Numbered from the stretch's first letter, positions 6,874 through 53,780 are shown. The stretch: DNA of 64,000 bases from Candidatus Absconditabacteria bacterium (GCA_028693445.1 JAQUVI010000001.1:1-64000), one strand, 5' to 3'. The notes: generated by a model from the letters alone, not told the origin. Made by a program: numbers and translations.

Positions 6874-6885
6874 TTATTGACATAT

Positions 6886-7054: not shown

Positions 7055-7096
7055 TGTGCATGTGTGGTATTTGGTGCGTGTGCGTGTATGGTATGT

Positions 7097-7220: not shown

Positions 7221-7329
7221 ACGCCAAAACATTATTATCAACCAACAAAAATCTTTGTCCTACTTTTGTCAGTTTTTTTCTTTGTAAAATTGTATATAGT
7301 CCGCATATTTAATTTTTAACTTATAAAAA

Positions 7330-7824
7330 ATGTGCGATATTGTAATACAATCCTTAAAAGAAACCATACAATCCTTGGACGAAAACCAAAAATTAGAATG
7401 AGAAAGCTTTGTTTATCGATCAAAGAAAAAAATTAAAATACATTTCAAAAAGATAGAAGGTATTTTTGTACCACATAAATGAGAAATATACTATGTTCAG
7501 TTATGAAAAAATATTTCTACAGAATTAAATAAGAAAAGACCATGTATTGTTTGGAGTGAAAAAAAATATAATGCATGATGAAATCTTCTTATATTACCAC
7601 TGAAAACTTATCGTAATAAATTTCAAGAATGATACAATGTTGTTATAGACTCTACCAAAAACAACTGATTAACAAGAAAATCAATAATTACAATAACAGA
7701 TATAAAATCAGTTTCAAAAAATAGATTTTGAGGTAAAATATGAAACATTGAAGAAAAATATATGCAAATTATAGATCAGAAATTACAAGTTATTTTATGA
7801 TTAAAAAAACCCCTAAGCTACTAG
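7330..7824 (+). CDS. PemK/MazF-like toxin 1
   Basis: 164 residues with UGA = Gly. After a 55-residue N-terminal extension comes the PemK/MazF core: GEIYYVQLGKN, KKRPCIVWSEKKYNAGGN, LLILPLKTY, then SIITITDIKSVSKNRFGGKIG. These match the beta-barrel ribonuclease fold (G-IYYVDLG, RP-LV, PLT, QI--ISK-RL-KIG). No antitoxin gene is adjacent. Instead an apparent small RNA gene converges on the 3' end and its terminator overlaps the last 22 bases. The short N-terminal extension is shared in kind with the other two toxins. mRNA cleavage is inferred from the family. Confidence 0.82.
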
Positions 7825-7880
7825 AACTTAGAGGTAGATTCGCCCAATGTCTTGGGAACTAAGGATACTTCCTTAGAGAT
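7803..7880 (-). ncRNA. Predicted convergent small RNA 1
   Basis: On the minus strand a promoter at 7887-7914 is followed by about 78 bases that fold into three hairpins: CTAAGGA-AGTA-TCCTTAG, CCCAA-GACA-TTGGG, and a terminator CTAAG-loop-CTTAG followed by T7. The terminator lies inside the 3' end of the toxin gene, so the RNA is antisense to the last 22 bases of the toxin mRNA. No open frame of use is present. It is a candidate RNA antitoxin or regulator; transcription is inferred. Confidence 0.6.
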
Positions 7881-7886
7881 GATGCA

Positions 7887-7914
7887 ATTATAACAAAAAC
7901 ATTCCAAATTGCAA
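7887..7914 (-). promoter_or_regulatory. Promoter of small RNA 1
   Basis: Minus-strand TTGCAA, 16 bases, TATAAT, inside a stretch conserved at all three RNA types (TTTTGATTTGCAA upstream). Start expected near 7880. The second copy is at 14732-14759. Confidence 0.65.
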
Positions 7915-7920
7915 ATCAAA

Positions 7921-8004
7921 ATAACCTCACTTTTGCGTGGTGCGAAGTCCTCCGCGAAGTCGGGGGCAAAGAACCCTTAGACTTCAGTCTGAGGGTTTTT
8001 TGTG
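7921..8004 (+). repeat. Island repeat R6, variant with extra hairpin
   Basis: Starts ATAACCTCAC, carries an inserted CCTCCGCGAAGTCGGGGG hairpin, and ends with the compact terminator AACCCTTAGAC-TTCA-GTCTGAGGGTT plus T6. The second copy is at 14766-14849. Between here and 8130 an ACCGAT...ATCGGT hairpin lies near 8077-8108. Confidence 0.75.
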
Positions 8005-8130
8005 AAAATAAGCAAAGAATCTGTTGCTTAGTTGCTTGTACCCTTTAGGGTGCTTTGCTATATTTGAACAATACCGATGTGTTGAGTCGCCATCAAGAAA
8101 CCAATCGGTGTTGTGTTGTCAAAAAAAGAT

Positions 8131-8159
8131 TTGATTTTTATTTGTAAATTGTTTATAAT
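8131..8159 (+). promoter_or_regulatory. Promoter of the Bro-N gene
   Basis: TTGATT, 17 bases, TATAAT, ending 29 bases before the start codon. The sequence before it (GTTGTCAAAAAAAGATTTGATTT) equals that before dinD. The second copy is at 14976-15004. Confidence 0.65.
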
Positions 8160-8188
8160 TGACGTGTTTAGCTTGTAATCATATAAAA

Positions 8189-9040
8189 ATGTCAGGTATA
8201 AATAACACTATCACTGAAATTTCTTTATTTGATGTTTTTGAAGTTAGAAAAATTCGATACAATGAAGAACGATATTTTCCCATTAATGATATCGTTTTTG
8301 TTCTTACAGAAAGCAAAAATGTTGTTGATTATATCAAAAAATTGAAAATTAGAGATAAAGAGCTCTTGAAAGGATGGGGACAAATTGTCACCCCCCTTTG
8401 GGTAGATACCAAATGATGACGCCAAAAACTCAACTGTACCAATACAAAATGAGCGCTTAGAATCCTCCAATCTATCTCATCTCCCAAAGCAGAACCATTT
8501 AAACAATGGTTGGCTTCACTTTGAAATGAAAGGTTGGATGAAATTAATAATCCAGAATTATGAATTCAAAGAGCAAAAGCTAGAGCTATTGAGATACGAA
8601 GAAAACAATGACATGATGAAAAATGGATTACAAAAAGATTACAAAGTATAGATACAAGAAATTCTTTTACAGATTTACTCAAAGAGAGAGGAATCAAAGA
8701 TTGGTTTGAGTATGCTTTGTTGACCAATAAAGTTTATAGTGTTTGATTGTGAGTACCTGGTTGAGCGTCGGAATATAGAAATATAAAATGAATCAAAAAA
8801 ACAGATAATCTTAGAGATCATATGGATAATTTGGAAATAGCATTAGTTGATTTAGCAGAAGCATGATCCCAAAAAATTATGGAAGAGAAATGAAGTAAGT
8901 GATTTGAAGAAGTCCAGGATGCTGTAATTATATGATCATGAGTCGCATGAGAAGCTAGAGATACTATAGAAAAATATATATGAAAACCAATTATTTCTGA
9001 TAAAAATTATAAACCGGATTCCAAAAAATGATTAAATTAA
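8189..9040 (+). CDS. Bro-N / phage antirepressor-like protein
   Basis: 283 residues. The Bro-N core is visible: ISLFDVFEVRKIRYNEERYF, INDIVFVLTESKNVVDYIKK, GWGQIVTPLWVDTKGGRQKL, then ISSPKAEPFKQWLA, a hallmark of prophage antirepressor proteins. The following part (ARAIEIRRKQGHDEKWITKR, then FTDLLKERGI) is the usual C-terminal extension of this family in bacteria. It ends in KKGLN like DinD and is followed by the same two-hairpin module, so the 3' halves of the two units are related. The DNA-binding role is family knowledge. Confidence 0.85.
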
Positions 9041-9047
9041 TCTCTCG

Positions 9048-9192
9048 AGATCTAATTGTTAGACATATATAACTAAACCAACCAAAGAATCTGTAAAGAA
9101 ATTGCTTTGGATTGGTTAAGAATACCGCTGATTTGAGAAATTGTAAGTCATTGGAATTGAAATGAATTACAACTTTCGAAAACAAGCGGTAT
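9048..9192 (+). repeat. Two-hairpin 3' module after Bro-N
   Basis: Nearly identical to 5739-5882, including the ATACCGCT/AGCGGTAT closing arms. It runs directly into island repeat R7. Confidence 0.55.
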
Positions 9193-9272
9193 ACCCTCGC
9201 CTCGGCGTGGTACATAGAACCCTTGGACTTTTATCCGGCAGAATTGCGGGACCGGTCTGAGGGTTTTTTGTG
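9191..9272 (+). repeat. Island repeat R7: hairpin plus terminator
   Basis: Module-end repeat starting ATACCCTCGC and ending AGGGTTTTTTGTG. After it come a G/T-rich stretch (9290-9376), a variant palindrome (9377-9400) and a GTCATCCCT...GGGGATC hairpin near 9439. No gene is seen in 9273-9564. The second copy is at 16036-16117. Confidence 0.75.
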
Positions 9273-9376
9273 AAAATAAAATTTTGTTGTGTGCAGGGTT
9301 GGTGTGGTTGCGGGGTGCGGGGCGGTGTCGGTTGGGATGTGTAATGTGGTTGCGTGTGTGCGTGTATATGATATGT

Positions 9377-9400
9377 AGAGGCGCGATTAATCGCGCCTCT
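9377..9400 (+). repeat. 24-bp palindrome, GC variant
   Basis: AGAGGCGCGATT plus its reverse complement. Compared with the palindrome at 7097, the A-T pair near each end is exchanged for G-C on both arms, so the change is compensated and pairing is kept. The second copy is at 16222-16245. Confidence 0.75.
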
Positions 9401-9564
9401 AACCGTACATCATTTCATCGTTTTGTTTGTTGTTTCTTTGTCATCCCTAACTTGATTGGGGATCTTAGCTGAATGTTTTTTTTCATGGGGATGATATAGA
9501 TGACCAATCTGGATTTCCTCTCCAAATTGCAATCCAAACGGTATCAGTAAATCATTACATTGTA

Positions 9565-9592
9565 TTGAATTTGTCAAAAATATTGTTAAAAT
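9565..9592 (+). promoter_or_regulatory. Promoter of hicBA-2
   Basis: TTGAAT, 16 bases, TAAAAT, ending 31 bases before hicB-2. The second copy is at 16410-16437. Confidence 0.5.
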
Positions 9593-9623
9593 TCAGACAC
9601 ATTTATGATTTAACTATAAAAAG

Positions 9624-9836
9624 ATGGAAATAATAATAAGAAAAGATGGGGAATGATACATAGCAGAAGTAAAATCTAAACCAAATATTTATGCTTTTTG
9701 ATATTCAAAAGAAGAGGCTTTGAGTGAGTTAAAAAATGTAGTAGATATGATGGTTGATTTTTATTCACAAGAAATGTCTTTTCAAAAGAAAGTTAAAAAG
9801 TTTTTGATAAACAAATCTTATACATATGCCGTATAA
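9624..9836 (+). CDS. hicB: HicB-family antitoxin 2
   Basis: 70 residues. IIIRKDGEGYIAEVKSKPN and YSKEEALSELKNVVDMMV give the compact HicB fold. It is much shorter than many HicB proteins and lacks a DNA-binding tail. It overlaps hicA-2 by 11 bases. It differs in sequence from hicB-1, so the two systems are likely separate pairs. Confidence 0.8.
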
Positions 9837-10041
9837 ATTCCGCGATATAGAAAGAAGGCTCAGAAAATTGTGATTTGATATTGTAAGACAAAAATGATCT
9901 CATGTGATTTTTTCTGATTGAAAGATAACTTTCCCTGTTCCAAACCATTGATGAAAGGATATATCTCCATGAGTAGAAAAGAAAATTCTAGAATTCATCT
10001 CCAAAAATAAACAAGATTTTGATAAAATTTTAGATATATAA
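9826..10041 (+). CDS. hicA: HicA-family mRNA interferase toxin 2
   Basis: 71 residues. RDIERRLRKLGFDIVRQKGSHVIFSDGK contains the GSH active-site motif, followed by FPVPNHGGKDISPGVEKKIL. This is closer to the canonical HicA consensus than HicA-1. Its TAA stop lies inside the first bases of island repeat R8 (ATAACC), so the repeat abuts the coding region directly. Confidence 0.85.
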
Positions 10042-10103
10042 CCTCGCTTCGGCGTGGTACAGAAAAACCCTTGAACTCCGGTCTGAGGGTTTTTTGTGTT
10101 GTT
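10038..10103 (+). repeat. Island repeat R8, short form
   Basis: ATAACCTCGCTTCGGCGTGG hairpin, then AACCCTTGAACTCCGGTCTGAGGGTT plus T6. The central arm is deleted. It supplies the hicA-2 stop codon and terminator. The second copy is at 16883-16948. Confidence 0.8.
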
Positions 10104-10174
10104 GGATTTTTGTGGTTGTTGGCGTGGTTGCGGGGTGCGGGGCGTAATTTGGTGGTGCGTGTGCTGTGCTCTCA

Positions 10175-10203
10175 GTCATTGCGAGCGACAGCGCGGCAAT
10201 CCA
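10175..10203 (+). repeat. GTCATTGCGAG palindromic repeat
   Basis: GTCATTGCGAGCGACAGCGC followed by GGCAATCCA; ATTGC and GCAAT pair. It lies before pemK-2, after a G/T-rich spacer. The second copy is at 17020-17048. Confidence 0.6.
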
Positions 10204-10292
10204 TACGGTTATTTCTTTGTCCTAACTTTGTCAGTTTTTTTCTTTTTTTGTATCTGTAAAGTTCACTCGCTTTACTTTGTAAACTAGGAAAG

Positions 10293-10721
10293 ATGAAAAA
10301 GACAGATGTGATTTTTGATTTGTGGAATGGTAAAAAGAAAAATATAGAAAAAGAAACATCCAAAAAGATAGTCAAAAAAAGACAGATTCGATTATATTAT
10401 GTTTGAATTAATGTATGAAACGAGGAAAGCAAAGACAACCCTTTTATTAGACCTTGCTTGATTGTAAATAATTATTTTAGATGAGATCTTGTTTTAATTG
10501 TTCCTATGACGACCAAAATAAATACAAATCTCAAAGATATTTATTATCAGATTGATTGAACTAAATATTGATTAAACAAAACCAGTTATGTCTTATGTAA
10601 CCAAATAAAAGTAATAAGTAAAAAAAGATTAAATAGAAAACTAAATGATACAGATGATATCTCTCTGCTAAATAATGATGTTTTTTTGGAAATTATAGAG
10701 AAATTAAAAAGTTTTATATAA
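10293..10721 (+). CDS. PemK/MazF-like toxin 2
   Basis: 142 residues. The core runs from QIRLYYVGINVG through IRPCLIVNNYFRGDLVLIVP and TTKINT to SYVLCNQIKVISKKRLNRKL. The RP-LIVNN and PMT motifs and the QIK-ISK-RL segment are family marks. It has an N-terminal extension of about 35 residues starting with a FDLWN motif shared with toxin 3 (FDIWN). It uses the KilA-N type of leader hairpin. No antitoxin gene is adjacent; a convergent RNA gene begins beyond its 3' end. Confidence 0.82.
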
Positions 10722-10779
10722 AAAAATCCCCTGCAGTATTGCAGGGTCAGGTGGATACGCAAAAGCTATCCTTATTTGT
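10720..10779 (-). ncRNA. Predicted convergent small RNA 2
   Basis: About 60 bases on the minus strand after the promoter at 10786-10813. It has a GGATA...TATCC hairpin and a perfect terminator CCCTGCA-ATAC-TGCAGGG followed by T7. It reaches only the stop codon of the toxin gene. Its sequence is unrelated to small RNAs 1 and 3, although promoter and layout match. Confidence 0.6.
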
Positions 10780-10785
10780 ACTATA

Positions 10786-10813
10786 ATTATAGCAAAAGAT
10801 TTGTGAAATGCAA
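10786..10813 (-). promoter_or_regulatory. Promoter of small RNA 2
   Basis: Minus-strand TTGCAT, 16 bases, TATAAT, with the same TTTTGATTTGCA block as the other two RNA promoters. The second copy is at 17631-17658. Confidence 0.65.
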
Positions 10814-10819
10814 ATCAAA

Positions 10820-10905
10820 ATAACCTCGCCTCGGCGTGGTACATAGAACCCTTTGACTTTTATCTGGCAGAATTGCGGGACCGGTCTGAGGGTTTTTTGT
10901 GTTGT
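10820..10905 (+). repeat. Island repeat R9: hairpin plus terminator
   Basis: Full-length module-end repeat (AACCCTTTGAC arm). A GTCATTGCGAG element at 10910-10943 follows and marks the junction between the two long repeat copies. Confidence 0.8.
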
Positions 10906-11115
10906 CAAAGTCATTGCGAGGAGCCAAAGCGACGTGGCAATCCATGCGGTAGTTTTTTTGTCCTAAAGGCACTTGCCCGCAGAATTGCCTGGTCAGTCCC
11001 GCTAAAGCGGGATAATTTACAACAGATCCAAAAATTATTTTTTTCTTTTTTTGTTGCTTGAAAAACTTATACAAATCTTTATAATGTACTTGGTTTTATA
11101 TTTAACCAATAAAAA

Positions 11116-11364
11116 ATGTTTACAGATTATATTCATTATCTTCTAGCAAAAGCAGCTTATGAAAAAGATGAAAACTGATATATTGTTGCAAGTGTACCTT
11201 GATATCAAGGGTTTTTTTCACAATGACAAAATATAGAAGAAGCAAGAGAAAATCTTGTAGATGCTATTGAATGAGTTGTTTTTCATAAAATACAACATAA
11301 CGATAAAAAAATAATTAAAGAAATAAAAACATTTATTTCCAAGCAAAATTTGCAATATGCCTAG
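11116..11364 (+). CDS. hicB: HicB-family antitoxin 1, second copy
   Basis: Same sequence as the gene at 4271-4519 (82 residues), within copy B of the long repeat. Same promoter (11058-11085) and the same 8-base overlap with hicA. Confidence 0.85.
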
Positions 11365-11575
11365 ATTGGTTCCATTAAAACCAGAAGAAATTATCAAAAA
11401 ATTAAGAAAATTATGATACGAATGACCTGAATCATGAGGTAGACATTTACATATGATCAAATGACCAAATATAATACCAATTCCAAAACATTGATGAAGT
11501 GAAATATGAGTTGGTTTAATATCAAAGATCATTAAAGAAGTATGAATTTCTAGAAACGAATGGATAGAATTATAA
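11357..11575 (+). CDS. hicA: HicA-family toxin 1, second copy
   Basis: Same sequence as 4512-4730 (72 residues), followed by the UUCG-capped terminator at 11639-11665. Confidence 0.86.
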
Positions 11576-11741
11576 TTAATCTCTTGTAGATCTAATTATT
11601 GACACATACGACTTTGTCTTCGGGCATCGTTCAGAAAGACCCTTGGCTTCGGCTGAGGGTTTTTTGTGTTGTCAAAAAAAGATTTGATTTTTGTATTTTT
11701 TCTTGTATAATTGTGGAAATTTATATTGTAATTAATAAGTA

Positions 11742-12572
11742 ATGGATGAACTTAATACAGGTTTATTAATTAGTAAATTTGATAATATCAAAAATATAGA
11801 TAGTTCTGTAGAATGGCGAAGAGCAAGAGATCTTCAAAAATTGCTTTGATATACAGAACGAAGAAATTTTTTCTTGGTAATAGAAAAAGCTAAAGAATCG
11901 TGTAAAACGTCTTGATCGGTTATAAAAGATCACTTTGTTGATGTCAACAAACCGATAATTGGTGGTAAGTGATCGATCCAACTTGTAGAAGATTTTATGC
12001 TTTCTCGTTTTGCTTGTTATCTTATTGCTCAAAATTGAGATCCAAGAAAACAAGAGATAGCTTTTGCTCAAGCTTATTTTGCTACACAAACAAGAAAACA
12101 AGAGATTTTAGAAAAATATATGGTAGAACATCAAAGACTTTTGAGTAGACAGAAATTAAAAAACACAGAAGCGGAATTTCAAAAGTTGGCATACGAAAGA
12201 TGAGTTAATTGAGACTGAATAAGTAGAATAAGAAGTAAATGAGATACTGTTTTGTTTGGAGGTAAAACAACTCAAGATATGAAAAAATCTTATTGAATAA
12301 AAAGCTGACCCTTAGCTGATTATCTTCCAGAAGTTACTATCAAAGCAAAGGATTTGGCAACAGAAGTAACTAATTATAATATGAAAAACAAGAATCTTAA
12401 ATGAGAGGATACTATAACACACGAACATATAAAAAATAATCAATGAGTTAGAGAGTACTTGATTCAAAGTTGAATAAAACCCGAAGAATTACCACCATCA
12501 GAAGATATTAAGAAGATTGAAAGAAGACACAAAAAAGACGAAAAAATAATTTCCAAAAGATGATTAAATTAA
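11742..12572 (+). CDS. dinD: DinD-like protein, second copy
   Basis: Same sequence as 4897-5727 (276 residues). Promoter at 11684-11711. The two-hairpin module (12584-12727) and repeat R4' (12726-12812) follow. Confidence 0.85.
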
Positions 12573-12725
12573 TCTCTCTTGGAGATCTAATTGTTAGACA
12601 TATATAACTAAACCAACCAAAGAATCTGTAAAGAAATTGCTTTGGATTTGTTAAGAATACCGCTGATTTGAGAAATTGTAAGTCATTGGAATTGAAATGA
12701 ATTACAACTTTCGAAAACAAGCGGT

Positions 12726-12812
12726 ATAACCTCGCCTCGGCGTGGTACAAAGAACCCTTGGACTTTTATCCGGCAGAATTGCGGGATCGGTCTGAGGGTT
12801 TTTTGTGTTGTT
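12726..12812 (+). repeat. Island repeat R4', second copy
   Basis: Same as 5881-5967; ends the dinD unit. Confidence 0.8.
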
Positions 12813-12896
12813 GTTTTCTTTTGTCCTACTTTTGTCAGTTTTTTTCTTTTTTTGTATCTGTAAAGTTCACTCGCTTTACTTCGTAATATAGGAAAA

Positions 12897-13718
12897 ATGA
12901 AAAAAACGACAGCGATCAATGTCCAATGAGTAGCTATTGGCATAGTAGAAACCAACCAAGAAAGCTATATTAGTTTGACTGATATGGTAAAAAATTTTTG
13001 AGACGATGCTATGATCTATAGTTGGATGAGAAACAGATCTACTTTACAATTTATTTGATTATGGGAACAGTTACACAATCCAAATTTTAAAGGTAACGAA
13101 TTCGAGACCTTTAAAAAAGAAGCATGATTGAACACATTCAATTTAACACCAAGAAAATGGATAGAAGCGACTAATGCTATATGAATAATTTCAAAGGCGT
13201 GAAGATATTGAGGATGAACTTATGCACACAAGGATATTGCATTTGAGTTTGCCTCTTGGTTAAGTCCTGAATTTAAACTTTATCTTATCAAAGAATTCCA
13301 AAGACTCAAAGAACAAGAAGTCAAAGCATTAGATCGAGATGTAAAAAGATTTCTGACTAAAATGAACTATAGAATCCATACAGACGCTATTCAAGATTAT
13401 CTTGTGCCCAAAGAACTTTCTAAAGACGAAATAAACCATATTTACGCCGATGAGGCAGATGTGCTAAACAAATCATTATTTGGACAAACAGCAAAACAGC
13501 GAAAAGATAAGAATTTAACAAAAAAATGAAATATGAGGGATTTCGCGACAATAGAACAACTAATAATCTTAGCAAACCTAGAAAGTATCAATGCAGAGTT
13601 TATCAAAATGTGAATAAACCAATCCAAACGTCTTCAGATATTAAACCAAACAGCAATTAGCCAAATGAAATCATTGATCCAAAATCAGAATAGAATTGTT
13701 TGATTAGAGAATAAATAA
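12897..13718 (+). CDS. KilA-N domain protein 2, second copy
   Basis: Same sequence as 6052-6873 (273 residues), with the same leader hairpin (12860-12879) and the weakened terminator repeat at 13731-13817 downstream. Confidence 0.85.
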
Positions 13719-13730
13719 TTATTGACATAT

Positions 13731-13817
13731 ATAACCTCGCTTCTGCGTGGTGCAAAGAACCCTTGGACTTTTATCCGGCAGAATTGCGGGACCGGTCTGA
13801 GGGTTATTTGTGTTGTT
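13731..13817 (+). repeat. Island repeat R5', second copy
   Basis: Same as 6886-6972, including the interrupted T tract. A G-quadruplex-capable cluster (13855-13899) follows. Confidence 0.75.
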
Positions 13818-13941
13818 GGGATTTTTTGTGGTTTTTTGTTGTTGGCGTTGTTGCGGGGTGGGTGTTGGGTGTAGGGTTGGGTGTGCGTGTAGGGTTGGGT
13901 GTGCATGTGTGGTATTTGGTGCGTGTGCGTGTATGGTATGT

Positions 13942-14065
13942 AGAGACGCGATTAATCGCGTCTCTAACCGTAACCGTAACCGTAACCGTAACCGTAACCG
14001 TAACCGTAACCGTAACCGTAACCGTAACCGTAACCGTAACCGTAACCGTAACCGTAACCGTAACC
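13942..14065 (+). repeat. Palindrome and (AACCGT)n array, second copy
   Basis: 24-bp palindrome at 13942-13965, then the 6-bp tandem array at 13966-14065 with the same number of units as copy A. Confidence 0.9.
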
Positions 14066-14174
14066 ACGCCAAAACATTATTATCAACCAACAAAAATCTT
14101 TGTCCTACTTTTGTCAGTTTTTTTCTTTGTAAAATTGTATATAGTCCGCATATTTAATTTTTAACTTATAAAAA

Positions 14175-14669
14175 ATGTGCGATATTGTAATACAATCCTT
14201 AAAAGAAACCATACAATCCTTGGACGAAAACCAAAAATTAGAATGAGAAAGCTTTGTTTATCGATCAAAGAAAAAAATTAAAATACATTTCAAAAAGATA
14301 GAAGGTATTTTTGTACCACATAAATGAGAAATATACTATGTTCAGTTATGAAAAAATATTTCTACAGAATTAAATAAGAAAAGACCATGTATTGTTTGGA
14401 GTGAAAAAAAATATAATGCATGATGAAATCTTCTTATATTACCACTGAAAACTTATCGTAATAAATTTCAAGAATGATACAATGTTGTTATAGACTCTAC
14501 CAAAAACAACTGATTAACAAGAAAATCAATAATTACAATAACAGATATAAAATCAGTTTCAAAAAATAGATTTTGAGGTAAAATATGAAACATTGAAGAA
14601 AAATATATGCAAATTATAGATCAGAAATTACAAGTTATTTTATGATTAAAAAAACCCCTAAGCTACTAG
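14175..14669 (+). CDS. PemK/MazF-like toxin 1, second copy
   Basis: Same sequence as 7330-7824 (164 residues), with the same convergent RNA gene at its 3' end. Confidence 0.82.
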
Positions 14670-14725
14670 AACTTAGAGGTAGATTCGCCCAATGTCTTGG
14701 GAACTAAGGATACTTCCTTAGAGAT
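14648..14725 (-). ncRNA. Predicted convergent small RNA 1, second copy
   Basis: Same as 7803-7880, with its promoter at 14732-14759 and repeat R6' at 14766-14849. Confidence 0.6.
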
Positions 14726-14765
14726 GATGCAATTATAACAAAAACATTCCAAATTGCAAATCAAA

Positions 14766-14849
14766 ATAACCTCACTTTTGCGTGGTGCGAAGTCCTCCGC
14801 GAAGTCGGGGGCAAAGAACCCTTAGACTTCAGTCTGAGGGTTTTTTGTG
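14766..14849 (+). repeat. Island repeat R6', second copy
   Basis: Same as 7921-8004. Confidence 0.75.
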
Positions 14850-15033
14850 AAAATAAGCAAAGAATCTGTTGCTTAGTTGCTTGTACCCTTTAGGGTGCTT
14901 TGCTATATTTGAACAATACCGATGTGTTGAGTCGCCATCAAGAAACCAATCGGTGTTGTGTTGTCAAAAAAAGATTTGATTTTTATTTGTAAATTGTTTA
15001 TAATTGACGTGTTTAGCTTGTAATCATATAAAA

Positions 15034-15885
15034 ATGTCAGGTATAAATAACACTATCACTGAAATTTCTTTATTTGATGTTTTTGAAGTTAGAAAAATTC
15101 GATACAATGAAGAACGATATTTTCCCATTAATGATATCGTTTTTGTTCTTACAGAAAGCAAAAATGTTGTTGATTATATCAAAAAATTGAAAATTAGAGA
15201 TAAAGAGCTCTTGAAAGGATGGGGACAAATTGTCACCCCCCTTTGGGTAGATACCAAATGATGACGCCAAAAACTCAACTGTACCAATACAAAATGAGCG
15301 CTTAGAATCCTCCAATCTATCTCATCTCCCAAAGCAGAACCATTTAAACAATGGTTGGCTTCACTTTGAAATGAAAGGTTGGATGAAATTAATAATCCAG
15401 AATTATGAATTCAAAGAGCAAAAGCTAGAGCTATTGAGATACGAAGAAAACAATGACATGATGAAAAATGGATTACAAAAAGATTACAAAGTATAGATAC
15501 AAGAAATTCTTTTACAGATTTACTCAAAGAGAGAGGAATCAAAGATTGGTTTGAGTATGCTTTGTTGACCAATAAAGTTTATAGTGTTTGATTGTGAGTA
15601 CCTGGTTGAGCGTCGGAATATAGAAATATAAAATGAATCAAAAAAACAGATAATCTTAGAGATCATATGGATAATTTGGAAATAGCATTAGTTGATTTAG
15701 CAGAAGCATGATCCCAAAAAATTATGGAAGAGAAATGAAGTAAGTGATTTGAAGAAGTCCAGGATGCTGTAATTATATGATCATGAGTCGCATGAGAAGC
15801 TAGAGATACTATAGAAAAATATATATGAAAACCAATTATTTCTGATAAAAATTATAAACCGGATTCCAAAAAATGATTAAATTAA
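15034..15885 (+). CDS. Bro-N protein, second copy
   Basis: Same sequence as 8189-9040 (283 residues). Promoter at 14976-15004. The two-hairpin module and repeat R7' (16036-16117) follow. Confidence 0.85.
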
Positions 15886-16035
15886 TCTCTCGAGATCTAA
15901 TTGTTAGACATATATAACTAAACCAACCAAAGAATCTGTAAAGAAATTGCTTTGGATTGGTTAAGAATACCGCTGATTTGAGAAATTGTAAGTCATTGGA
16001 ATTGAAATGAATTACAACTTTCGAAAACAAGCGGT

Positions 16036-16117
16036 ATACCCTCGCCTCGGCGTGGTACATAGAACCCTTGGACTTTTATCCGGCAGAATTGCGGGACCGG
16101 TCTGAGGGTTTTTTGTG
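16036..16117 (+). repeat. Island repeat R7', second copy
   Basis: Same as 9191-9272. A G/T-rich spacer and the GC-variant palindrome (16222-16245) follow, with no gene until 16469. Confidence 0.75.
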
Positions 16118-16468
16118 AAAATAAAATTTTGTTGTGTGCAGGGTTGGTGTGGTTGCGGGGTGCGGGGCGGTGTCGGTTGGGATGTGTAATGTGGTTGCGT
16201 GTGTGCGTGTATATGATATGTAGAGGCGCGATTAATCGCGCCTCTAACCGTACATCATTTCATCGTTTTGTTTGTTGTTTCTTTGTCATCCCTAACTTGA
16301 TTGGGGATCTTAGCTGAATGTTTTTTTTCATGGGGATGATATAGATGACCAATCTGGATTTCCTCTCCAAATTGCAATCCAAACGGTATCAGTAAATCAT
16401 TACATTGTATTGAATTTGTCAAAAATATTGTTAAAATTCAGACACATTTATGATTTAACTATAAAAAG

Positions 16469-16681
16469 ATGGAAATAATAATAAGAAAAGATGGGGAATG
16501 ATACATAGCAGAAGTAAAATCTAAACCAAATATTTATGCTTTTTGATATTCAAAAGAAGAGGCTTTGAGTGAGTTAAAAAATGTAGTAGATATGATGGTT
16601 GATTTTTATTCACAAGAAATGTCTTTTCAAAAGAAAGTTAAAAAGTTTTTGATAAACAAATCTTATACATATGCCGTATAA
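16469..16681 (+). CDS. hicB: HicB-family antitoxin 2, second copy
   Basis: Same sequence as 9624-9836 (70 residues). Promoter at 16410-16437. Confidence 0.8.
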
Positions 16682-16886
16682 ATTCCGCGATATAGAAAGA
16701 AGGCTCAGAAAATTGTGATTTGATATTGTAAGACAAAAATGATCTCATGTGATTTTTTCTGATTGAAAGATAACTTTCCCTGTTCCAAACCATTGATGAA
16801 AGGATATATCTCCATGAGTAGAAAAGAAAATTCTAGAATTCATCTCCAAAAATAAACAAGATTTTGATAAAATTTTAGATATATAA
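16671..16886 (+). CDS. hicA: HicA-family toxin 2, second copy
   Basis: Same sequence as 9826-10041 (71 residues). The stop codon again lies in the first bases of the short repeat R8' (16883-16948). Confidence 0.85.
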
Positions 16887-16948
16887 CCTCGCTTCGGCGT
16901 GGTACAGAAAAACCCTTGAACTCCGGTCTGAGGGTTTTTTGTGTTGTT
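16883..16948 (+). repeat. Island repeat R8', second copy
   Basis: Same as 10038-10103. A GTCATTGCGAG element (17020-17048) and the leader hairpin (17101-17120) follow before pemK-2. Confidence 0.8.
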
Positions 16949-17137
16949 GGATTTTTGTGGTTGTTGGCGTGGTTGCGGGGTGCGGGGCGTAATTTGGTGG
17001 TGCGTGTGCTGTGCTCTCAGTCATTGCGAGCGACAGCGCGGCAATCCATACGGTTATTTCTTTGTCCTAACTTTGTCAGTTTTTTTCTTTTTTTGTATCT
17101 GTAAAGTTCACTCGCTTTACTTTGTAAACTAGGAAAG

Positions 17138-17566
17138 ATGAAAAAGACAGATGTGATTTTTGATTTGTGGAATGGTAAAAAGAAAAATATAGAAAAAGAA
17201 ACATCCAAAAAGATAGTCAAAAAAAGACAGATTCGATTATATTATGTTTGAATTAATGTATGAAACGAGGAAAGCAAAGACAACCCTTTTATTAGACCTT
17301 GCTTGATTGTAAATAATTATTTTAGATGAGATCTTGTTTTAATTGTTCCTATGACGACCAAAATAAATACAAATCTCAAAGATATTTATTATCAGATTGA
17401 TTGAACTAAATATTGATTAAACAAAACCAGTTATGTCTTATGTAACCAAATAAAAGTAATAAGTAAAAAAAGATTAAATAGAAAACTAAATGATACAGAT
17501 GATATCTCTCTGCTAAATAATGATGTTTTTTTGGAAATTATAGAGAAATTAAAAAGTTTTATATAA
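17138..17566 (+). CDS. PemK/MazF-like toxin 2, second copy
   Basis: Same sequence as 10293-10721 (142 residues), with the convergent RNA 2 at its 3' end. Confidence 0.82.
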
Positions 17567-17624
17567 AAAAATCCCCTGCAGTATTGCAGGGTCAGGTGGA
17601 TACGCAAAAGCTATCCTTATTTGT
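17565..17624 (-). ncRNA. Predicted convergent small RNA 2, second copy
   Basis: Same as 10720-10779, promoter at 17631-17658. Confidence 0.6.
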
Positions 17625-17664
17625 ACTATAATTATAGCAAAAGATTTGTGAAATGCAAATCAAA

Positions 17665-17750
17665 ATAACCTCGCCTCGGCGTGGTACATAGAACCCTTTG
17701 ACTTTTATCTGGCAGAATTGCGGGACCGGTCTGAGGGTTTTTTGTGTTGT
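17665..17750 (+). repeat. Island repeat R9', second copy
   Basis: Same as 10820-10905. The GTCATTGCGAG element at 17755-17783 follows, where the long repeat ends. Confidence 0.8.
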
Positions 17751-17871
17751 CAAAGTCATTGCGAGCGGCAGCGTGGCAATCCATGTGGTTGTTTCTTTGT
17801 CCTAACTTTGTCAGTTTTTTTCTTTGTAAAATTGTATATAGTCCACAAACTTTATATACTAACCAAAGAAA

Positions 17872-44527: not shown

Positions 44528-44914
44528 TTAGTTTTCAGATATCAAGGAAAGAAATTTTTTGGCAAAGTTTTCAATATCTTCTTCCTTATATTTTCCTTTA
44601 AATAAGATATTGAAATTTTCTTCTTCTGTGTAATCATCGCCAATATGGTCGATAAAATTTCCTATTTTCTTAAACTTAGCATCGAAAGCATCCTCATGGA
44701 GCCTAAATATAAGTGGTGCGTTTCTTTTTACAAAACGCATAGCCTGATCTTCGCCATGTTTATCCAAAAGAATTTTTGTTTTTTCAGATACATTGGCCAA
44801 AAAGAGTTTTTGCTTATCTATCATTTTGTTAAAAACTTTCGTTATAAACGAAATTATAAAAAAAGAAAAGACAGCAAATAAAGCTAAAATAATTAAAAAA
44901 GTTCCTGGTTCCAT
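44528..44914 (-). CDS. Small membrane-anchored protein
   Basis: 128 residues with an N-terminal membrane helix (TFLIILALFAVFSFFIISFI) and a charged helical domain. No internal UGA. Not recognised. It has its own promoter at 44941-44968 and a terminator. Confidence 0.7.
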   Translation of the reverse strand: MEPGTFLIILALFAVFSFFIISFITKVFNKMIDKQKLFLANVSEKTKILLDKHGEDQAMRFVKRNAPLIFRLHEDAFDAKFKKIGNFIDHIGDDYTEEENFNILFKGKYKEEDIENFAKKFLSLISEN

Positions 44915-46806: not shown

Positions 46807-47292
46807 ATGCTAGATTATATCCAACCAATTATCAATCAAATAACTTCAACACGATGATACATTATATATACTCTATGAGCCAAAACTGGACGAACTCCTT
46901 GGATAGTTGAATATGTTATTGTTCTTTGAATTCTTTATATTATTGCAGTTTATATTCTTCACAAAATATATCGTTTTTTTGTTTCTTCCACTAAAAAACA
47001 AAAGGCAGATTACTTTCTAGCTTGTGACAAAATTTTGTACGAATTTCAACTAGAAAGTTCAAAAAATTATCAAGATTTAGAACGGATAAAAGATATAACA
47101 AAAAAAGCTTCCTATGAGGAATCTTATAAATTTTTTGTAGAAAAAACTACTGAATTAGAATCTGATGTTTTCCAAAAACAACTCAAAAATACATATCAAT
47201 CTTACAATAATGCACTTAGGAGAAAAACTTTTTGTGGTATTTTTTTGTTACTTATTACATTGGGTATATATAAATTATTCTTGGAAAATTAA
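46807..47292 (+). CDS. Membrane protein with two helices, unknown
   Basis: 161 residues. TM helix near residues 33-52 (VEYVIVLGILYIIAVYILHK), a long helical soluble loop, and a C-terminal TM helix (FCGIFLLLITLGIYKLFLEN). Follows tilS by 23 bases and converges with the next gene, overlapping it by 4 bases. Confidence 0.7.
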
Positions 47293-47528
47293 TTTGGTAT
47301 AACAGGTAGTCTTTGATTACTTCGCTCTTTTTCATATTGTTCTGTTTTTTCTGAAATTTGATGTTCATCAGAAGTTTTTTTATCTGTCTTTTTTGATCAA
47401 CCAGAAAAAGTACTCAATAATTCGCGAATACCCAACATCATTAAACTTTCTTTTTTAGCAATTGTTTTTGCTAAATCTTGTGTTGCTAAATCTTGTGTTC
47501 TATCTTCTAACTGATTAGTTGTAGTCAT
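47289..47528 (-). CDS. Small hydrophilic protein
   Basis: 79 residues: MTTTNQLEDRTQDLATQDLA, IRELLSTFSGGSKKTDKKTS, with one UGA glycine. A short duplicated RTQDLATQDLA segment. Not recognised. Overlaps the end of the converging gene by 4 bases. Confidence 0.5.
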
Positions 47529-47609: not shown

Positions 47610-47640
47610 AAAAAAAAGGTTCCAGTAAAAAACTGGAACC
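47610..47640 (-). terminator. Terminator of the type-IX-like cluster
   Basis: Minus-strand GGTTCCAGT-TTTTT-ACTGGAACC followed by T8. Confidence 0.85.
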
Positions 47641-47664
47641 CTCTAATTTTATTTACTGGCATCT

Positions 47665-49005
47665 TTATTTGCTACGCCAGATCTCTTCACCATCCTTTAA
47701 AATCCAAAACTCTTCTTTTGCTTTAATTGTTCCTTTGCTCCAGAATATTGCATATCTGGAACCACTTTTTAATAGGGCAATAAAAGGAATTGAACCTTGA
47801 GGTTGTGTAGGAAAACACTCTTTGTCCACAATAGATATTTGTTTATCAATCGCTAGGTTGATATCATCAAAAACCTGATCAATGATAAATTTTCTCAAAG
47901 GAGATTCATCTATTTGGTCAAAAATATCCATACGAATATTTTCCTCTTTTACACAAGGAAAGCGTTTCTTAAACAGAATTATATCTGTTAGATATTTTTG
48001 ATATGCCCCAAGCTGGATTTCTGCTTTTATAGAATCTAAACCAAACTCATTAATTTTTACAATGAGTTGTTGTCTTGGCGGCAATGAATCAATAGGTACT
48101 TCTTCGACAATTTGTTTTGTAATATCAGGCAAACTGTCCTGAACAGGAATCGAATCCAATTGTACAATAGTAGTATCAGGGGGCGCGATAAGTTTTGGCT
48201 TTATTAGCTGATAAATATCATATCCGCCTATACCATTAGAGCGGTTTGATGCAAAATAAATCGTTGAATCATTATATTGACGATAATCTTGATCATCAAA
48301 TTCCGTATTGATAGGATAAGGAAGTTTTTGTGGTTCTTCCCATATCTCATCAATCAGATTAGAACAATAAATATCAAACGTACCATCTCGATTTGAACTA
48401 AAATAAAGTTCTCTTCCAGAAGGAGAAATCCATAAACCAACTTCATCAAAAGGAGAATTTAATGTATCTACAGGAATCGGTTTATTGGTACCAACTTGAA
48501 AATAGATATCATAATTACCACTACGATTGCTCGTAAAGTAAAGAGAATCTCCTTTTGTAGCAATACTATTTTCATCCCAATCAGAAAGTATAAATGGAAT
48601 CTTTTTTAATTGTTTGATATAAATTTCTTGTTTTCTTGGTGCAACAAAAATCTCACCATTGTCAGGGAAATAACTTTGGTAGAAAAAGAAATTAGAATCG
48701 GAACAACCAACTAATGCACTATTTGCATCAGAGTTTGCCTTATAACTAAATTTCTTTATCTTTCCAAAACTAGTATCCACAACTAAGGTATAATAGACCT
48801 TTTCTGTGTATTCAAGTAGTTTGTCTTCCAGAGAATTTCTTCTCATAGAGGTAAACAATAACATACTATCAACCAAAAAAGGTCCATAATCATCAGCAAC
48901 TGAATTTATTGACAAGTTTTTGGCTTGCCAAGTTGAATCCAGTTGCTGAGCAAACATACCAAAAAAACAAAAAATTGCAGATAATATTAGCAATAGCTTT
49001 TTCAT
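47665..49005 (-). CDS. PD40/TolB-like beta-propeller protein
   Basis: 446 residues; signal peptide (MKKLLLILSAIFCFFGMFAQ). Repeats GDSLYFTSNRSGNYDIYFQV, GRELYFSSNRDGTFDIYCSN and STIYFASNRSNGIGGYDIYQ are PD40/WD40-like propeller blades, as in type IX secretion accessory proteins of Bacteroidota. The C-terminal part includes KINEFGLDSIKAEIQLGAYQ, as in SPOR-like tails. No internal UGA; stop TAA. It starts at the ATGA overlap with the PorP/SprF gene. Confidence 0.82.
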   Translation of the reverse strand: MKKLLLILSAIFCFFGMFAQQLDSTWQAKNLSINSVADDYGPFLVDSMLLFTSMRRNSLEDKLLEYTEKVYYTLVVDTSFGKIKKFSYKANSDANSALVGCSDSNFFFYQSYFPDNGEIFVAPRKQEIYIKQLKKIPFILSDWDENSIATKGDSLYFTSNRSGNYDIYFQVGTNKPIPVDTLNSPFDEVGLWISPSGRELYFSSNRDGTFDIYCSNLIDEIWEEPQKLPYPINTEFDDQDYRQYNDSTIYFASNRSNGIGGYDIYQLIKPKLIAPPDTTIVQLDSIPVQDSLPDITKQIVEEVPIDSLPPRQQLIVKINEFGLDSIKAEIQLGAYQKYLTDIILFKKRFPCVKEENIRMDIFDQIDESPLRKFIIDQVFDDINLAIDKQISIVDKECFPTQPQGSIPFIALLKSGSRYAIFWSKGTIKAKEEFWILKDGEEIWRSK

Positions 49006-49910
49006 GAGCCACTACCTTTAGACGTTTTTGAATAAGGCAATTTCAACATCAAAACTATTTCATGCTTGGTAAACGGATAGTTGTATTGTCCAGTTGTACC
49101 AAATGAATAGGAGCCACAATATCCAAATGATAAATTTTGAACATTAACTCCAAAACCACCTTTTATCACAAAAGAAGAAGCATAGCCAACGGTAAACAAC
49201 AAATCTTTATTAAGAATGAATTTACCTGATGCGCCATACATTATTCCTTTTAGGTCTTGAATATTGCTACTCATAACATATGCACTACTTTCTAGTAATA
49301 ACACATTTTCCAATAAGCTAAAGGTATACATACCATTTGCAACATAAGTGATATTTGTTTTATTTTCAAACTCACTTACCATCCAATTGGTTTGTTTTGG
49401 TAACAAATTATATGCAGCCAAACCAACATAATACCTATTAACTTGAGAAAACGCTATACCAAAATTAGAATTGAACCAGTTGCCTGATTCAGAGCCTTGA
49501 AGAATTGGATCACTAGGATCATAAACTTCTACTCGGTCTCTCATTAACTGCAGCTGGTTAAAACCACCACTCAATCCAAACGAAAGTTTACTTCCTCCAA
49601 TAGGTACGTGATAAATAAATGTTGCCTCGGCTGATAAATTATGTAAAATACCAGCTTCTTGTGAAGCTATTTTAAAACCACCAGCCACTCTTTTATTGTT
49701 AAATGGCGATGTCCCCCAAAGAAAGAAAGATTGTGGATGGTAATCATAAGCCCCCATTTCTGTTTGATATAGAGTACCTATTTTCACCATTTCATTATAA
49801 CCACCCAAACTTGGATTGGCGAGATATGGATCGTAACCACTTCCCGTTTGTGCAAATACTCCCGTTGATAATACTACCAACAAAGAGCAAATTCTGAATT
49901 TATTTTTCAT
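49002..49910 (-). CDS. PorP/SprF-family type IX secretion membrane protein
   Basis: 302 residues; signal peptide ending near VFAQT. YDPYLANPSLGGYNEM matches the NPAYAG motif of the family, and the rest is an even run of beta strands (GGFKIASQEAGILHN, LSFGLSGGFNQLQLM, YVGLAAYNLLP) ending in HEIVLMLKLPYSK, as in an outer-membrane beta barrel. It ends at TGA, overlapping the next ATG. In this organism that TGA would be read as Gly, extending the protein by five residues (GKSYC) to a TAA. No internal UGA. Confidence 0.88.
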   Translation of the reverse strand: MKNKFRICSLLVVLSTGVFAQTGSGYDPYLANPSLGGYNEMVKIGTLYQTEMGAYDYHPQSFFLWGTSPFNNKRVAGGFKIASQEAGILHNLSAEATFIYHVPIGGSKLSFGLSGGFNQLQLMRDRVEVYDPSDPILQGSESGNWFNSNFGIAFSQVNRYYVGLAAYNLLPKQTNWMVSEFENKTNITYVANGMYTFSLLENVLLLESSAYVMSSNIQDLKGIMYGASGKFILNKDLLFTVGYASSFVIKGGFGVNVQNLSFGYCGSYSFGTTGQYNYPFTKHEIVLMLKLPYSKTSKGSGS

Positions 49911-49935
49911 TTAAATTTGTTTTTGTCAGTTAGCA

Positions 49936-52479
49936 CTAATACAACACAGTTATTGTTTTTCTAAATTCTCTTGAGGTTCCATTATCTTTTGTTTGTTTTA
50001 TGTAAACAAAGACAATAGTTCCAGATGGTACTAAATTATCTGAGGTATTTTTTCCATCCCAAGAGATTGAACAATCGTTTGTTTCAAACAAAGTATTTCC
50101 TAATCTATCAATTATAATAACTGAAACGTCTGAATAATAACAAAGATTATTAATATCTAGAATATCATTGATACCATCACTATTTGGCGTAATTACACTA
50201 GGAATACAAACCTCAGTTCCTGTTAATATTTCAACAGAATCAATTGCTGTACATCCGTTAGAATCAGTTATTATTACGGAATACCAACCAGTGACTAATG
50301 AATCAATTTCAAAACTAGTCTCGCCATTTTCCCAAAGATAATTAAGTGGGTCTAAACTATTTTCAACATAATTTACCCAAACTTTACCATCTTCAGCTTC
50401 TGGACAATAAGTTGTCTCAGTTCCAAAGTGAATACGCAATCTTTCAATGGGTTGGGTAATAGTATAGTTTTGATTAGCGGTACAACCATTATCATCAGTA
50501 ATAAGTATAGAATAGGTTCCTGCTCTAAGTCTTGTTGCTAAAAAGTTTTCTGCAGGTTGTAAAATAGTTACAGTTGTATCTTGTCCTAAGTAATCTTCTC
50601 CATTAAGTACAAACGTGCTATTTGGACCAGAAGTTCCACCGTTTACAGTTATTCCTATTTCTCCATTACTCCCTCCAAAACATTTATTGTGAAGAAGATG
50701 AGGATACATAATAATTGGTAATTGTTGAACAAAAGTAATTGTTGTATCAAAATCACAAGTACCATTGGAAATAGTTACCAGATGCTCTCCTATAGGTAAA
50801 TCACCAAAACTTGTTGTATCATCAAATGAAACAGTTTGAGTAATTCCATCTACAGTAACATCAAGATCAAAAGCTTCCAGATTATGAACTCTTATTGTTC
50901 CAAGCTCGTCGTTACAGTTGATGGGAGTGTTTACAAATTCAAATTGGAAATTTGTCGGATTAGTTAGTGTCCAGGTTGTGTCAAAAACACATCCAACACT
51001 ATCTTTGAGATGTAAGTCATAAACTCCACTACCAAGATTTGTTATAGCATTGGTATTATTATTCATAACTACGTCATCTTTTTTCCAGACAAAAGAGTTT
51101 CCTCCATTTCCACCTACAACAGTTGTTGTAATACTTGCATTGGAATAATTATAACAAGCAACAGGTATAACGATATCAGTCACATGAAGTCGAACTGGTT
51201 CATTTACAATAACTGCTGGCGGAATAAATGTACAACCATTTTCATCAGTTACTGTTAATGTATAGGTACCAGCGGCAAGATTATCAATAGAAGCAGTGGT
51301 TTGTCCACTGTCCCAAGAATAATCCAGTTGGCCAGTCCCTCCATTAAAGTTAGCAGTAATTGAACCATTATTGGATTGAAAACAAGTCAGATCTTTTCCA
51401 ATTAATTCACCTTGAATAGGTAAATCAGGCTGAAGAATAGTTACACTTTGATCCAAAGAACATCCCGTAGAATCTTCTACATGGATATTGTATCTTCCAG
51501 CAAATAAGTCAGTCACTGCATCATTGTTACTAGAAAATCCGCTTGGACCAGTAATTGTGTAATCAAATTCACCCCAGCTTCCTTCAGCAACTGCAGTAAT
51601 ACGACCAGTATTATCACCAAAACAAGAGATGTTTCTTTGTGTCCAAGTGATTTTTATAGGTGTAATTACGCTGTCTACAATCCAAGAATATCTAAATCCT
51701 TTATTGTCGTTTGTTACAACTTTAAAGATATTCCTTCCTGGATAAACATCTGAAGAAAAGCTTTCCAAGGTATCTGACGTACTTGTTCGATAAGGACGAG
51801 GACCAGACAATAGTTCTACAATAGTGATTGTATCTTCAGGAAATTGTACAACAGTTGGTAAATTAGCTGGTACCAAAACAGGTCTGACATCACTTATAGG
51901 AGCAGTGCTACGATAGCATGCTGTATAGTCAATATCAAACGTAGTTGTAATTCCTGAAGATTCTCCAACACTAACAGTATCATGTCTTTGACATCCATTT
52001 AAATCAGTAAGAGTAATAAAATACGTTCCTGAATATAAACTGGCAAAAACATTATTAGTTTGTGTTTTTACTTCTGTAGTTGTACTATCAATCAATTCAT
52101 AAGCCATCCAGCCAGTTCCACCACTTGGTGTAATAGCAATACTTCCGTTTGGCAAAGGCCAATTGGAATTTGGTACTATTGCATACGCAGCAGTGATTGG
52201 TGTTGGATCAGTTAAATCATAACTAAATACCTGACTTACAAGTAAGGCATCAGTTACAGTTACAGTATAGTTACCAGAAGGCAACCCTTCAATAGTTTGT
52301 TCTGTGCTTGCTGTATTCCAGAGATAGGTATAAGGACCAGTCCCAAAATCAGAAACCACAAATAACCTTCCCGTGGCTTCGCCAGGGCAGTATATTCCTT
52401 GTATCTCTACAATCTGAGTAAATGCAAAATTACTCAAAAGGATAAACAAGGAAATCAAAATCGTTAGTTTTCTCATCAT
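49936..52479 (-). CDS. Large secreted protein with CHU_C / gliding-type C-terminus
   Basis: 847 residues; signal peptide (MMRKLTILISLFILLSNFAF). Repeated SprB-like units: SGNYTVTVTDALLV, AGTYTLTVTDENGCTF, AGTYSILITDDNGCTA, TGWYSVIITDSNGCTA. The end, IPSVITPNSDGINDILDI, then DRLGNTLFETNDCSISWDGK, is the gliding-motility-associated C-terminal domain that routes proteins to type IX secretion in Bacteroidota. No internal UGA over 847 codons; stop TAG. It is first of a three-gene operon with the PorP/SprF partner next. Confidence 0.9.
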   Translation of the reverse strand: MMRKLTILISLFILLSNFAFTQIVEIQGIYCPGEATGRLFVVSDFGTGPYTYLWNTASTEQTIEGLPSGNYTVTVTDALLVSQVFSYDLTDPTPITAAYAIVPNSNWPLPNGSIAITPSGGTGWMAYELIDSTTTEVKTQTNNVFASLYSGTYFITLTDLNGCQRHDTVSVGESSGITTTFDIDYTACYRSTAPISDVRPVLVPANLPTVVQFPEDTITIVELLSGPRPYRTSTSDTLESFSSDVYPGRNIFKVVTNDNKGFRYSWIVDSVITPIKITWTQRNISCFGDNTGRITAVAEGSWGEFDYTITGPSGFSSNNDAVTDLFAGRYNIHVEDSTGCSLDQSVTILQPDLPIQGELIGKDLTCFQSNNGSITANFNGGTGQLDYSWDSGQTTASIDNLAAGTYTLTVTDENGCTFIPPAVIVNEPVRLHVTDIVIPVACYNYSNASITTTVVGGNGGNSFVWKKDDVVMNNNTNAITNLGSGVYDLHLKDSVGCVFDTTWTLTNPTNFQFEFVNTPINCNDELGTIRVHNLEAFDLDVTVDGITQTVSFDDTTSFGDLPIGEHLVTISNGTCDFDTTITFVQQLPIIMYPHLLHNKCFGGSNGEIGITVNGGTSGPNSTFVLNGEDYLGQDTTVTILQPAENFLATRLRAGTYSILITDDNGCTANQNYTITQPIERLRIHFGTETTYCPEAEDGKVWVNYVENSLDPLNYLWENGETSFEIDSLVTGWYSVIITDSNGCTAIDSVEILTGTEVCIPSVITPNSDGINDILDINNLCYYSDVSVIIIDRLGNTLFETNDCSISWDGKNTSDNLVPSGTIVFVYIKQTKDNGTSREFRKTITVLY

Positions 52480-52718
52480 TTTTTTAAAATTTGGTTTATA
52501 TTTGTTAATAGTTTATTTTTTGTTAAATAACCGCTGAATATGCCAAAAAAATAGACATTACAGCCATCATATAATATGTAATTATTAGAATAAAAAAGTC
52601 AATACAATATTGGGTTTTAATAGAATAAAACAAAATTTAAATCAGATTGATTTTTTTGTAAAATTTCCTATATTATCACCTCAGCAAAAAAAGTGCTATT
52701 TATTATTAACATACGAAT

Positions 52719-53780
52719 ATGGATTTTGACCCAAAAAAGGATTATTATAAAATATTGGATATTCCAGAAACAGCTACAGCGGAAGACGCAAAGAAAGCTT
52801 TCAAAAAAGCCGCAGTAAAACATCACCCAGACCGCTGATGAGATAAAGCAAAATTCCAAGAGATCAATGAAGCTTTTCAAACCCTTTGAGACGAAAAAAA
52901 GAAATCTCAATATGACGCTTATCGTAGTTGATGATTTTGATGATTTGGTGGTGGTCAGTGATGATTTGATTTTTGATGATTTTGATGATGACAGTGAGGT
53001 TTCGATTTTTGATGAGTAGATCTTGGAGATATTTTTGGTAGTGTTTTTGGTTGATGATTTGGTTGACAACAATCTAGAGCAGAATCATTTAGTGGTGAAG
53101 ATATTAAAGTTGGTATAGAAATATCTTTTGAAGAATGATTTTTGGGAGTAACCAAAAAAGTTACTTATACTAGAAAAGTAAAAATGTCAGGGATTGATGA
53201 AAAACAATGTTCTACTTGTAAATGACAAGGAAGAGTTTCTAGAACTGTACAAACACCTTTTGGAATGATGCAAAGTCAAACCGTTTGTCCAGATTGTGGA
53301 GGTGTTTGACATCAATATACCAAAGATGGTAAAAATATTACATCCCCATTTGAAAACAAAAAAGAAACTATTGAAGTAAAAATCCCAGAATGAATCGATG
53401 ATGGTGTATATATCAAATTTGCAGGTAAATGACATCAATGATTAAATGGTTATGATGGTGATCTATATATTAAGATAATTATTAAGCCATCTTCATTATA
53501 CGAAAGGAAAGGAGATAATCTTTATATAAAAATACCTGTTACTATTTTTGATATGGTTCTTTGAGCAGAAAAACAAATCACTCACCCAGAAGGTAAACTC
53601 AAAATAAAAATCCCAAAAGCTACTCAAGTATGAGATATGGTGAAAATATCTGGAAAGTGATTTGTAAAATGATGAATTTTTGGTAAGAAAGGTGATTTAT
53701 ATTTGATTCCTAAAGTAGAAATCCCTAAAAAATTAAGCAAAGAAGAAGAAAAACTTTGGAAAGAGTTAGCTTCTATGTAG
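52719..53780 (+). CDS. dnaJ: Chaperone protein DnaJ
   Basis: 353 residues. J domain with [20 protein letters not shown] and HHPDRGG. A G/F region at residues 71-115 (SGGFGGFGGGQGGFDFGG...) where nearly all glycines in the GG pairs are UGA; this is the plainest evidence for the code. The central domain has only two CxxCxGxG motifs (CSTCKGQG, CPDCGGVG) rather than four, so one zinc centre. C-terminal peptide-binding domains follow ([20 protein letters not shown]). Partner of DnaK. Confidence 0.94.

Follow-up and report, generated by a model that had tools for sequence, protein, structure and literature searches.

How three genes with the marks of Bacteroidota type IX secretion (T9SS) come to stand, without any internal UGA, in a bacterial genome that reads UGA as glycine is the question raised by this locus. 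The DNA analysed (the window) comprises the initial 64 kb of contig 11, which is 444,707 bases long and belongs to a 1.17 Mb assembly, here called G000. G000 is congeneric with Candidate division SR1 bacterium RAAC1_SR1_1 (G381, hereafter RAAC1), whose closed chromosome is CP006913.1, and is therefore an Absconditabacterium (SR1) using code 25. A third species of the same genus, G380, was also compared. The features of the locus are as follows.

52719-53780, plus strand: native DnaJ gene, upstream flank of the trio; UGA at 31 of 57 Gly codons.
52597-52602, minus strand: TTGACT(TTT), the -35-like element of the trio promoter; it precedes the SprB start by 123 bases and is conserved in the three congeners, with a less clear -10.
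52480-52530, minus strand: leader of the SprB gene, rich in A and poor in G; over its last 36 bases A is about 0.6, against a native mean of 0.39.
49936-52479, minus strand: SprB-like adhesin of 847 aa with signal peptide, SprB repeats and, at the C-terminus, CHU_C, which is a T9SS type B sorting domain; none of its 69 Gly codons is UGA.
49002-49910, minus strand: PorP/SprF family protein, a putative beta-barrel, of 302 aa (or 307 aa with the terminal UGA read as Gly); no internal UGA.
49002-49004, minus strand: the trio's sole in-frame UGA, in an ATGA overlap with the PD40 start; read as a stop under code 11 and as Gly, followed by four more residues, under code 25.
47665-49005, minus strand: PD40 beta-propeller-repeat protein of 446 aa (PF07676, 1.4e-12); 20 Gly codons, no UGA.
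47610-47640, minus strand: intrinsic terminator, GGTTCCAG-TAAAAAA-CTGGAACC followed by a U run; hairpin common to G000 and RAAC1.
47289-47528, minus strand: native 79-aa gene on the downstream side of the trio; RAAC1 and G380 have homologues in the same position.
44528-44914, minus strand: 128-aa membrane protein, a possible further member of the gene class described below; no UGA among 5 Gly codons, TTGACTTT-N15-TATAAT and a nearly pure A/C, A-rich leader.

All three genes are open under table 11, and the families that the sequence-only reading had named for them (SprB-like repeats with CHU_C, PorP/SprF and PD40) held in profile searches. The SprB-like protein matched PF13573 (1.4e-22), PF13585 (1.6e-13) and TIGR04131. 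Its CTD lies at the very C-terminus (residues 759-829 of 847) and scored 51 bits with PF13585 and 43.1 with TIGR04131 (cut-off 35), as a T9SS type B cargo protein does, and this CTD is conserved in RAAC1 and G415. The second protein matched PF11751 (1.7e-33; 116.7 bits, cut-off 22.3) and TIGR03519 (107.3 bits, cut-off 90.55), which places it in the PorP/SprF family. The PD40 protein has homologues in RAAC1, G380 and G415, and its conserved C-terminal region carries the motif EIQLGAYQ and appears SPOR-like by eye only. It was also considered as a PorE or PD40-OmpA T9SS protein, and this was rejected: the PD40 repeats are there, the match to the PorE/CHU_0125 models was weak and partial (PorE 42 bits, cut-off 600), and the profile search gave no OmpA domain. 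Solved structures offered no match, and the AlphaFold models of PorP (mean pLDDT 26) and the PD40 protein were of too low quality for a fold search.

The trio thus resembles the PorP/SprF-SprB cassettes of the Bacteroidota T9SS in placing a PorP_SprF protein beside a PD40 protein and a protein that combines SprB repeats with a type B CTD, with signal peptides and purifying selection. It differs from them in its setting, a UGA-recoded SR1 genome without detectable BamA, in lacking OmpA on the PD40 protein, and in its SR1-type promoter. A Bacteroidota-type origin fits these families, an argument that rests on where the families are known from and not on a tree. In a search for named Bacteroidota donors, the genome scan returned only RAAC1 and a lake-sediment bin, and plasmid and viral scans gave nothing.

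The three genes had been described as 1595 codons without internal UGA between flanking genes using UGA as Gly, and this was confirmed. The flanking genes are open under code 25 only, and UGA makes up 46% of the Gly codons in the window outside the trio. The binomial probability of so little UGA was 4e-19 for the SprB gene, 1.5e-8 for the PorP gene (read-through UGA counted) and 5e-6 for the PD40 gene. Of the window's other genes, 61 are 100 aa or longer, and the 128-aa gene, with its few Gly codons, is alone among them in lacking UGA. The ATGA overlap had been taken as a stop that only a standard-code organism would read. The overlap is real, but it is no proof of a standard-code owner, since UGA read as Gly adds just five residues (GKSYC) before a UAA, and the RAAC1 homologue of PorP stops earlier, at UAG.

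A chimeric contig, as the sequence-only reading had proposed, or a contaminated one might come to mind for an assembly of 11 contigs with 6% estimated contamination. However, the same arrangement with homologous junctions is present in the closed RAAC1 chromosome, and we regard this explanation as almost inconceivable. In RAAC1, the same three genes stand between the same neighbours and are likewise UGA-free, and in G380 the PD40 gene alone of the trio, also UGA-free, is found at the same place. Across the three congeners, alignment was possible on both flanks: upstream from DnaJ up to and including the TTGACTTT element, and downstream over the 79-aa gene. Fourfold-site divergence between G000 and RAAC1 was 0.51 for SprB, 0.62 for PorP and 0.36 for PD40, compared with 0.44-0.48 for native genes, and dN/dS was about 0.29, 0.09 and 0.30, respectively. 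The shared locus and flanks, native-level synonymous divergence and low dN/dS indicated that the cassette is functional and older than the species split, so that the recent transfer suggested earlier from the sequence does not hold. We conclude that the trio is very probably an old, vertically inherited and functional Bacteroidota-type cassette in SR1, one of several, in which the absence of UGA and probably also the leader composition are under selection.

A second operon without UGA, whose last gene encodes a type A CTD protein, shows synteny across G000, RAAC1 and G380, and its neighbours on both sides use UGA in G000 and RAAC1. It lies at L112 6541-10197 (G000 contig 8), L053 3958-7593 (RAAC1) and L121 10073-11383 (G380), and its first two genes diverge fast. 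These two loci bear on the explanation that each gene is a fairly recent import from Bacteroidota, with shared positions reflecting integration hot spots or repeated replacement and with no time for UGA to enter. The families, leaders and codon usage do look foreign, many CTD genes are not common to different species, and the UGA stops retained by PorP in G415 and by CTD genes in G387 and G388 are what unadapted imports would be expected to show. However, both operons are syntenic in the congeners with homologous promoters, the trio also with a shared terminator; synonymous divergence is at the native level, and trio GC3 tracks that of each genome (0.205 against 0.206; 0.236 against 0.233). 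Recurrent import is therefore improbable in our judgement.

The absence of UGA from old genes was then compared with the rate at which native genes gain it, using UGA counts from samples that cover about a third of each genome (stretches of about 424 kb in G000 and 413 kb in RAAC1). In native orthologues, UGA occupies in G000 about 37% of the conserved Gly sites that are GGN in RAAC1. At native sites with GGN in both other species, UGA was found at 32% in G000, 10% in RAAC1 and 13% in G380, and a two-state hidden-ancestor fit (hidden states relabelled) gave UGA gains of about 0.23, 0.06 and 0.11, respectively. The trio has 96 conserved Gly sites, and the GGN codon had changed at 57 of them, never to UGA, where about 20-30 gains would be expected in G000 alone; at the lower gain rate, the chance of zero UGA is near 2e-11 in G000. 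This result demonstrated that UGA is excluded by selection. The same pattern was seen in a CTD pair of another genus (G415/G394: 73 conserved Gly, 50 codons changed, 0 UGA) and in two G415 paralogues (22 conserved Gly, 8 changed, 0 UGA). Homologues with UGA glycines in related genomes had been named earlier as the sign of old native genes; homologues do exist and are old, and still have zero UGA.

The trio belongs to a wider class. The type A T9SS signal (PF18962) was detected in 31 of 49 SR1-family genomes and CHU_C in six. In addition, most genes of L072 (G383 contig 4, 8.2 kb) lack UGA; this is perhaps a contaminating contig, and its CHU_C match is not to be counted. Among the best 29 CTD loci, 26 had no UGA; of the other three, the first carries a single UGA directly behind the CTD, the second has UGA solely ahead of its likely start, and the G390 gene uses three. 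In the pooled class (45 genes from nine genomes), UGA accounted for 2 of 2019 Gly codons, both at gene ends, compared with 0.24-0.64 in native genes. UAA or UAG served as stop in 33 of 35 examined CTD genes and is read alike in both codes. Class genes thus give the same protein under both codes, the G000 PorP being excepted by five residues. Besides lacking UGA, most members carry a CTD T9SS signal or a Bacteroidota-type signal peptide, and they have an A-rich leader, often with an SR1-type promoter.

Leaders of class genes are strongly skewed (A 0.67, G 0.02; native leaders 0.38 and 0.09) and often stand behind the SR1-type TTGACTTT promoter. The Bacteroidota promoter TAnnTTTG was not found upstream, apart from one chance site. 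When genes were picked by TTGACTTT plus an A-rich leader with codons ignored, 11 of 11 in RAAC1 and 8 of 10 in G000 were UGA-free, a supportive rather than independent result, as the selection overlaps the genes that prompted it. The picks include small proteins without known domain or recognisable T9SS signal. Neither element is exclusive to the class: the TTGACTTT promoter also precedes two native, UGA-using secreted genes, and nine G000 genes with an A-rich leader use UGA.

Such leaders also bear on translational efficiency, by which very abundant proteins would avoid UGA as a slow or error-prone Gly codon. A strong promoter with an unstructured A-rich leader suggests efficient expression, and UGA is scarce in EF-Tu, an S-layer-like protein and further proteins presumed to be abundant. 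In contrast, UGA use in ribosomal proteins is average (0.54 in G000), the class reads AGA at only 0.55/0.53 of its Arg codons against 0.92/0.95 in abundant genes, and a large native secreted protein has UGA at 64 of its 129 Gly codons. Codon selection for high expression was thus rejected as unsupported, and secretion as such was rejected because the native secreted giant uses UGA freely; efficiency in general seems to us a poor prospect. The S-layer-like protein lies in the window at 1-2865 (plus strand) and has 3 UGA among 68 Gly codons (1 of 41 in the part seen in RAAC1), indicating that native-looking proteins can avoid UGA.

The main rival is conditional decoding within SR1, in which the class would be expressed in a cell state such as dispersal or attachment, when the UGA-reading tRNA-Gly is scarce or cleaved; this would make it a codon regulon with no host translation. 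The shared leader and frequent promoter, the small members without recognisable T9SS signal, the exclusion of UGA by selection at independent loci, and the UGA avoidance of EF-Tu and the S-layer-like protein are all consistent with it. On the other hand, it leaves unexplained why most members bear T9SS or Bacteroidota signals in cells without BamA, and why their Arg codon use is not SR1-like. We consider it unlikely, though a serious contender. In Streptomyces, TTA/bldA-type codon regulons are gene sets marked by one codon, possibly tied to life-cycle state. The class here is alike in its one-codon marking and differs in that the mark is the absence of a reassigned stop codon, with tRNA control being hypothetical.

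Searches for secretion machinery found no BamA/Omp85 in six SR1-family genomes including G000, while the control did match, in line with the earlier remark that the outer membrane presumed by these families should be absent from Patescibacteria. SprA (PF14349) also gave no match in six SR1 genomes, where the control likewise gave none. With no BamA found, the putative barrel protein and the T9SS signals have no evident home in SR1. Since high expression and secretion are unable to explain the class and its T9SS signals lack an evident home in SR1, readability in the standard code is favoured. We infer that class genes most likely have to remain translatable in a setting where UGA terminates, perhaps via host machinery.

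The proposed explanation is that SR1 would transcribe the class genes and that the protein would have to come out right where UGA means stop, so that the genes would be kept bilingual. The likeliest place would be a Bacteroidota host or prey, with SR1 mRNA reaching its translation machinery either through a joined cytoplasm, where host RF2 would cut short UGA-bearing messages, or through message delivery. The products (the adhesin, the PorP carrier and the CTD proteins) would then use the host T9SS and outer membrane, which are apparently absent from SR1. As a whole, an old selected UGA-free class together with a need for bilingual reading is a tentative explanation that may well be wrong. The step that brings in the translation apparatus of a Bacteroidota host is more doubtful. 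The most specific version, in which host ribosomes translate the bilingual genes and the epibiont dresses the host surface with adhesins and other proteins via the host T9SS, is decidedly speculative. The SR1-type promoters, in place of the Bacteroidota TAnnTTTG, count against the host model, and we found no earlier case of SR1 sharing mRNA or ribosomes. Its main difficulty is the CTD genes that do use UGA, which indicate that a CTD can sit on genes only SR1 can translate. They occur in G429 (22 of 66 and 8 of 20 Gly codons), G423 (10 of 17), G391 (8 of 41) and G390 (3 of 30), mostly behind T-rich native leaders; the exclusion of UGA in the class is thus not absolute. UGA-using genes with T9SS signals were located at L150 7466-10891 (G429), L151 7148-7999 (G423), L154 1198-2721 (G391) and L161 7695-8657 (G390), and might be read as naturalised members. 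A decayed PorP fragment was present in G419.

Phages of Absconditabacteria and Gracilibacteria are free of in-frame TGA in a code-25 host, for which the authors proposed the advantage of serving hosts of both codes (PMC10746230). The trio shares this freedom from TGA in a code-25 host, whereas it consists of chromosomal, syntenic and vertically inherited surface-type genes. The UGA recoding of SR1 and Gracilibacteria has been discussed in terms of their being genetically isolated from neighbours (PMC8080830). In the present case, selection keeps a portion of a recoded genome equally legible in either code, and this portion encodes secreted proteins with signals for a seemingly missing machine. 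What recoding means for the relationship with the host thereby becomes testable, by asking where the class proteins are made and where they end up. A UGA-free reading frame with an A-rich leader could also serve as a simple genome-wide marker of candidate host-interaction genes in uncultured epibionts. Literature searches linking type IX secretion to Gracilibacteria, or the T9SS to the Candidate Phyla Radiation, gave no results.

Several further observations were made. Apparent pyrF and pyrE neighbours (L082 10545-12070 in G000; L091 2593-4253 in RAAC1) are nearly UGA-free in both species; they are cytosolic genes with class-like features, including some A-rich leaders, and the G000 pyrE-like gene has a phosphoribosyltransferase domain. 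The window also holds an exact direct repeat of 6790 bases (4131-10920 and 10976-17765, shift 6845) with several short native genes inside, which is either a very recent adjoining duplication or, this close to the start of the contig, an effect of the assembly. Elsewhere in G000, a UGA-free lipoprotein-like gene (L044 8055-9308, plus strand) starts with MKRLLLIPIAFFFFLSCEKEE, which we take to resemble the Bacteroidota surface-lipoprotein export signal.
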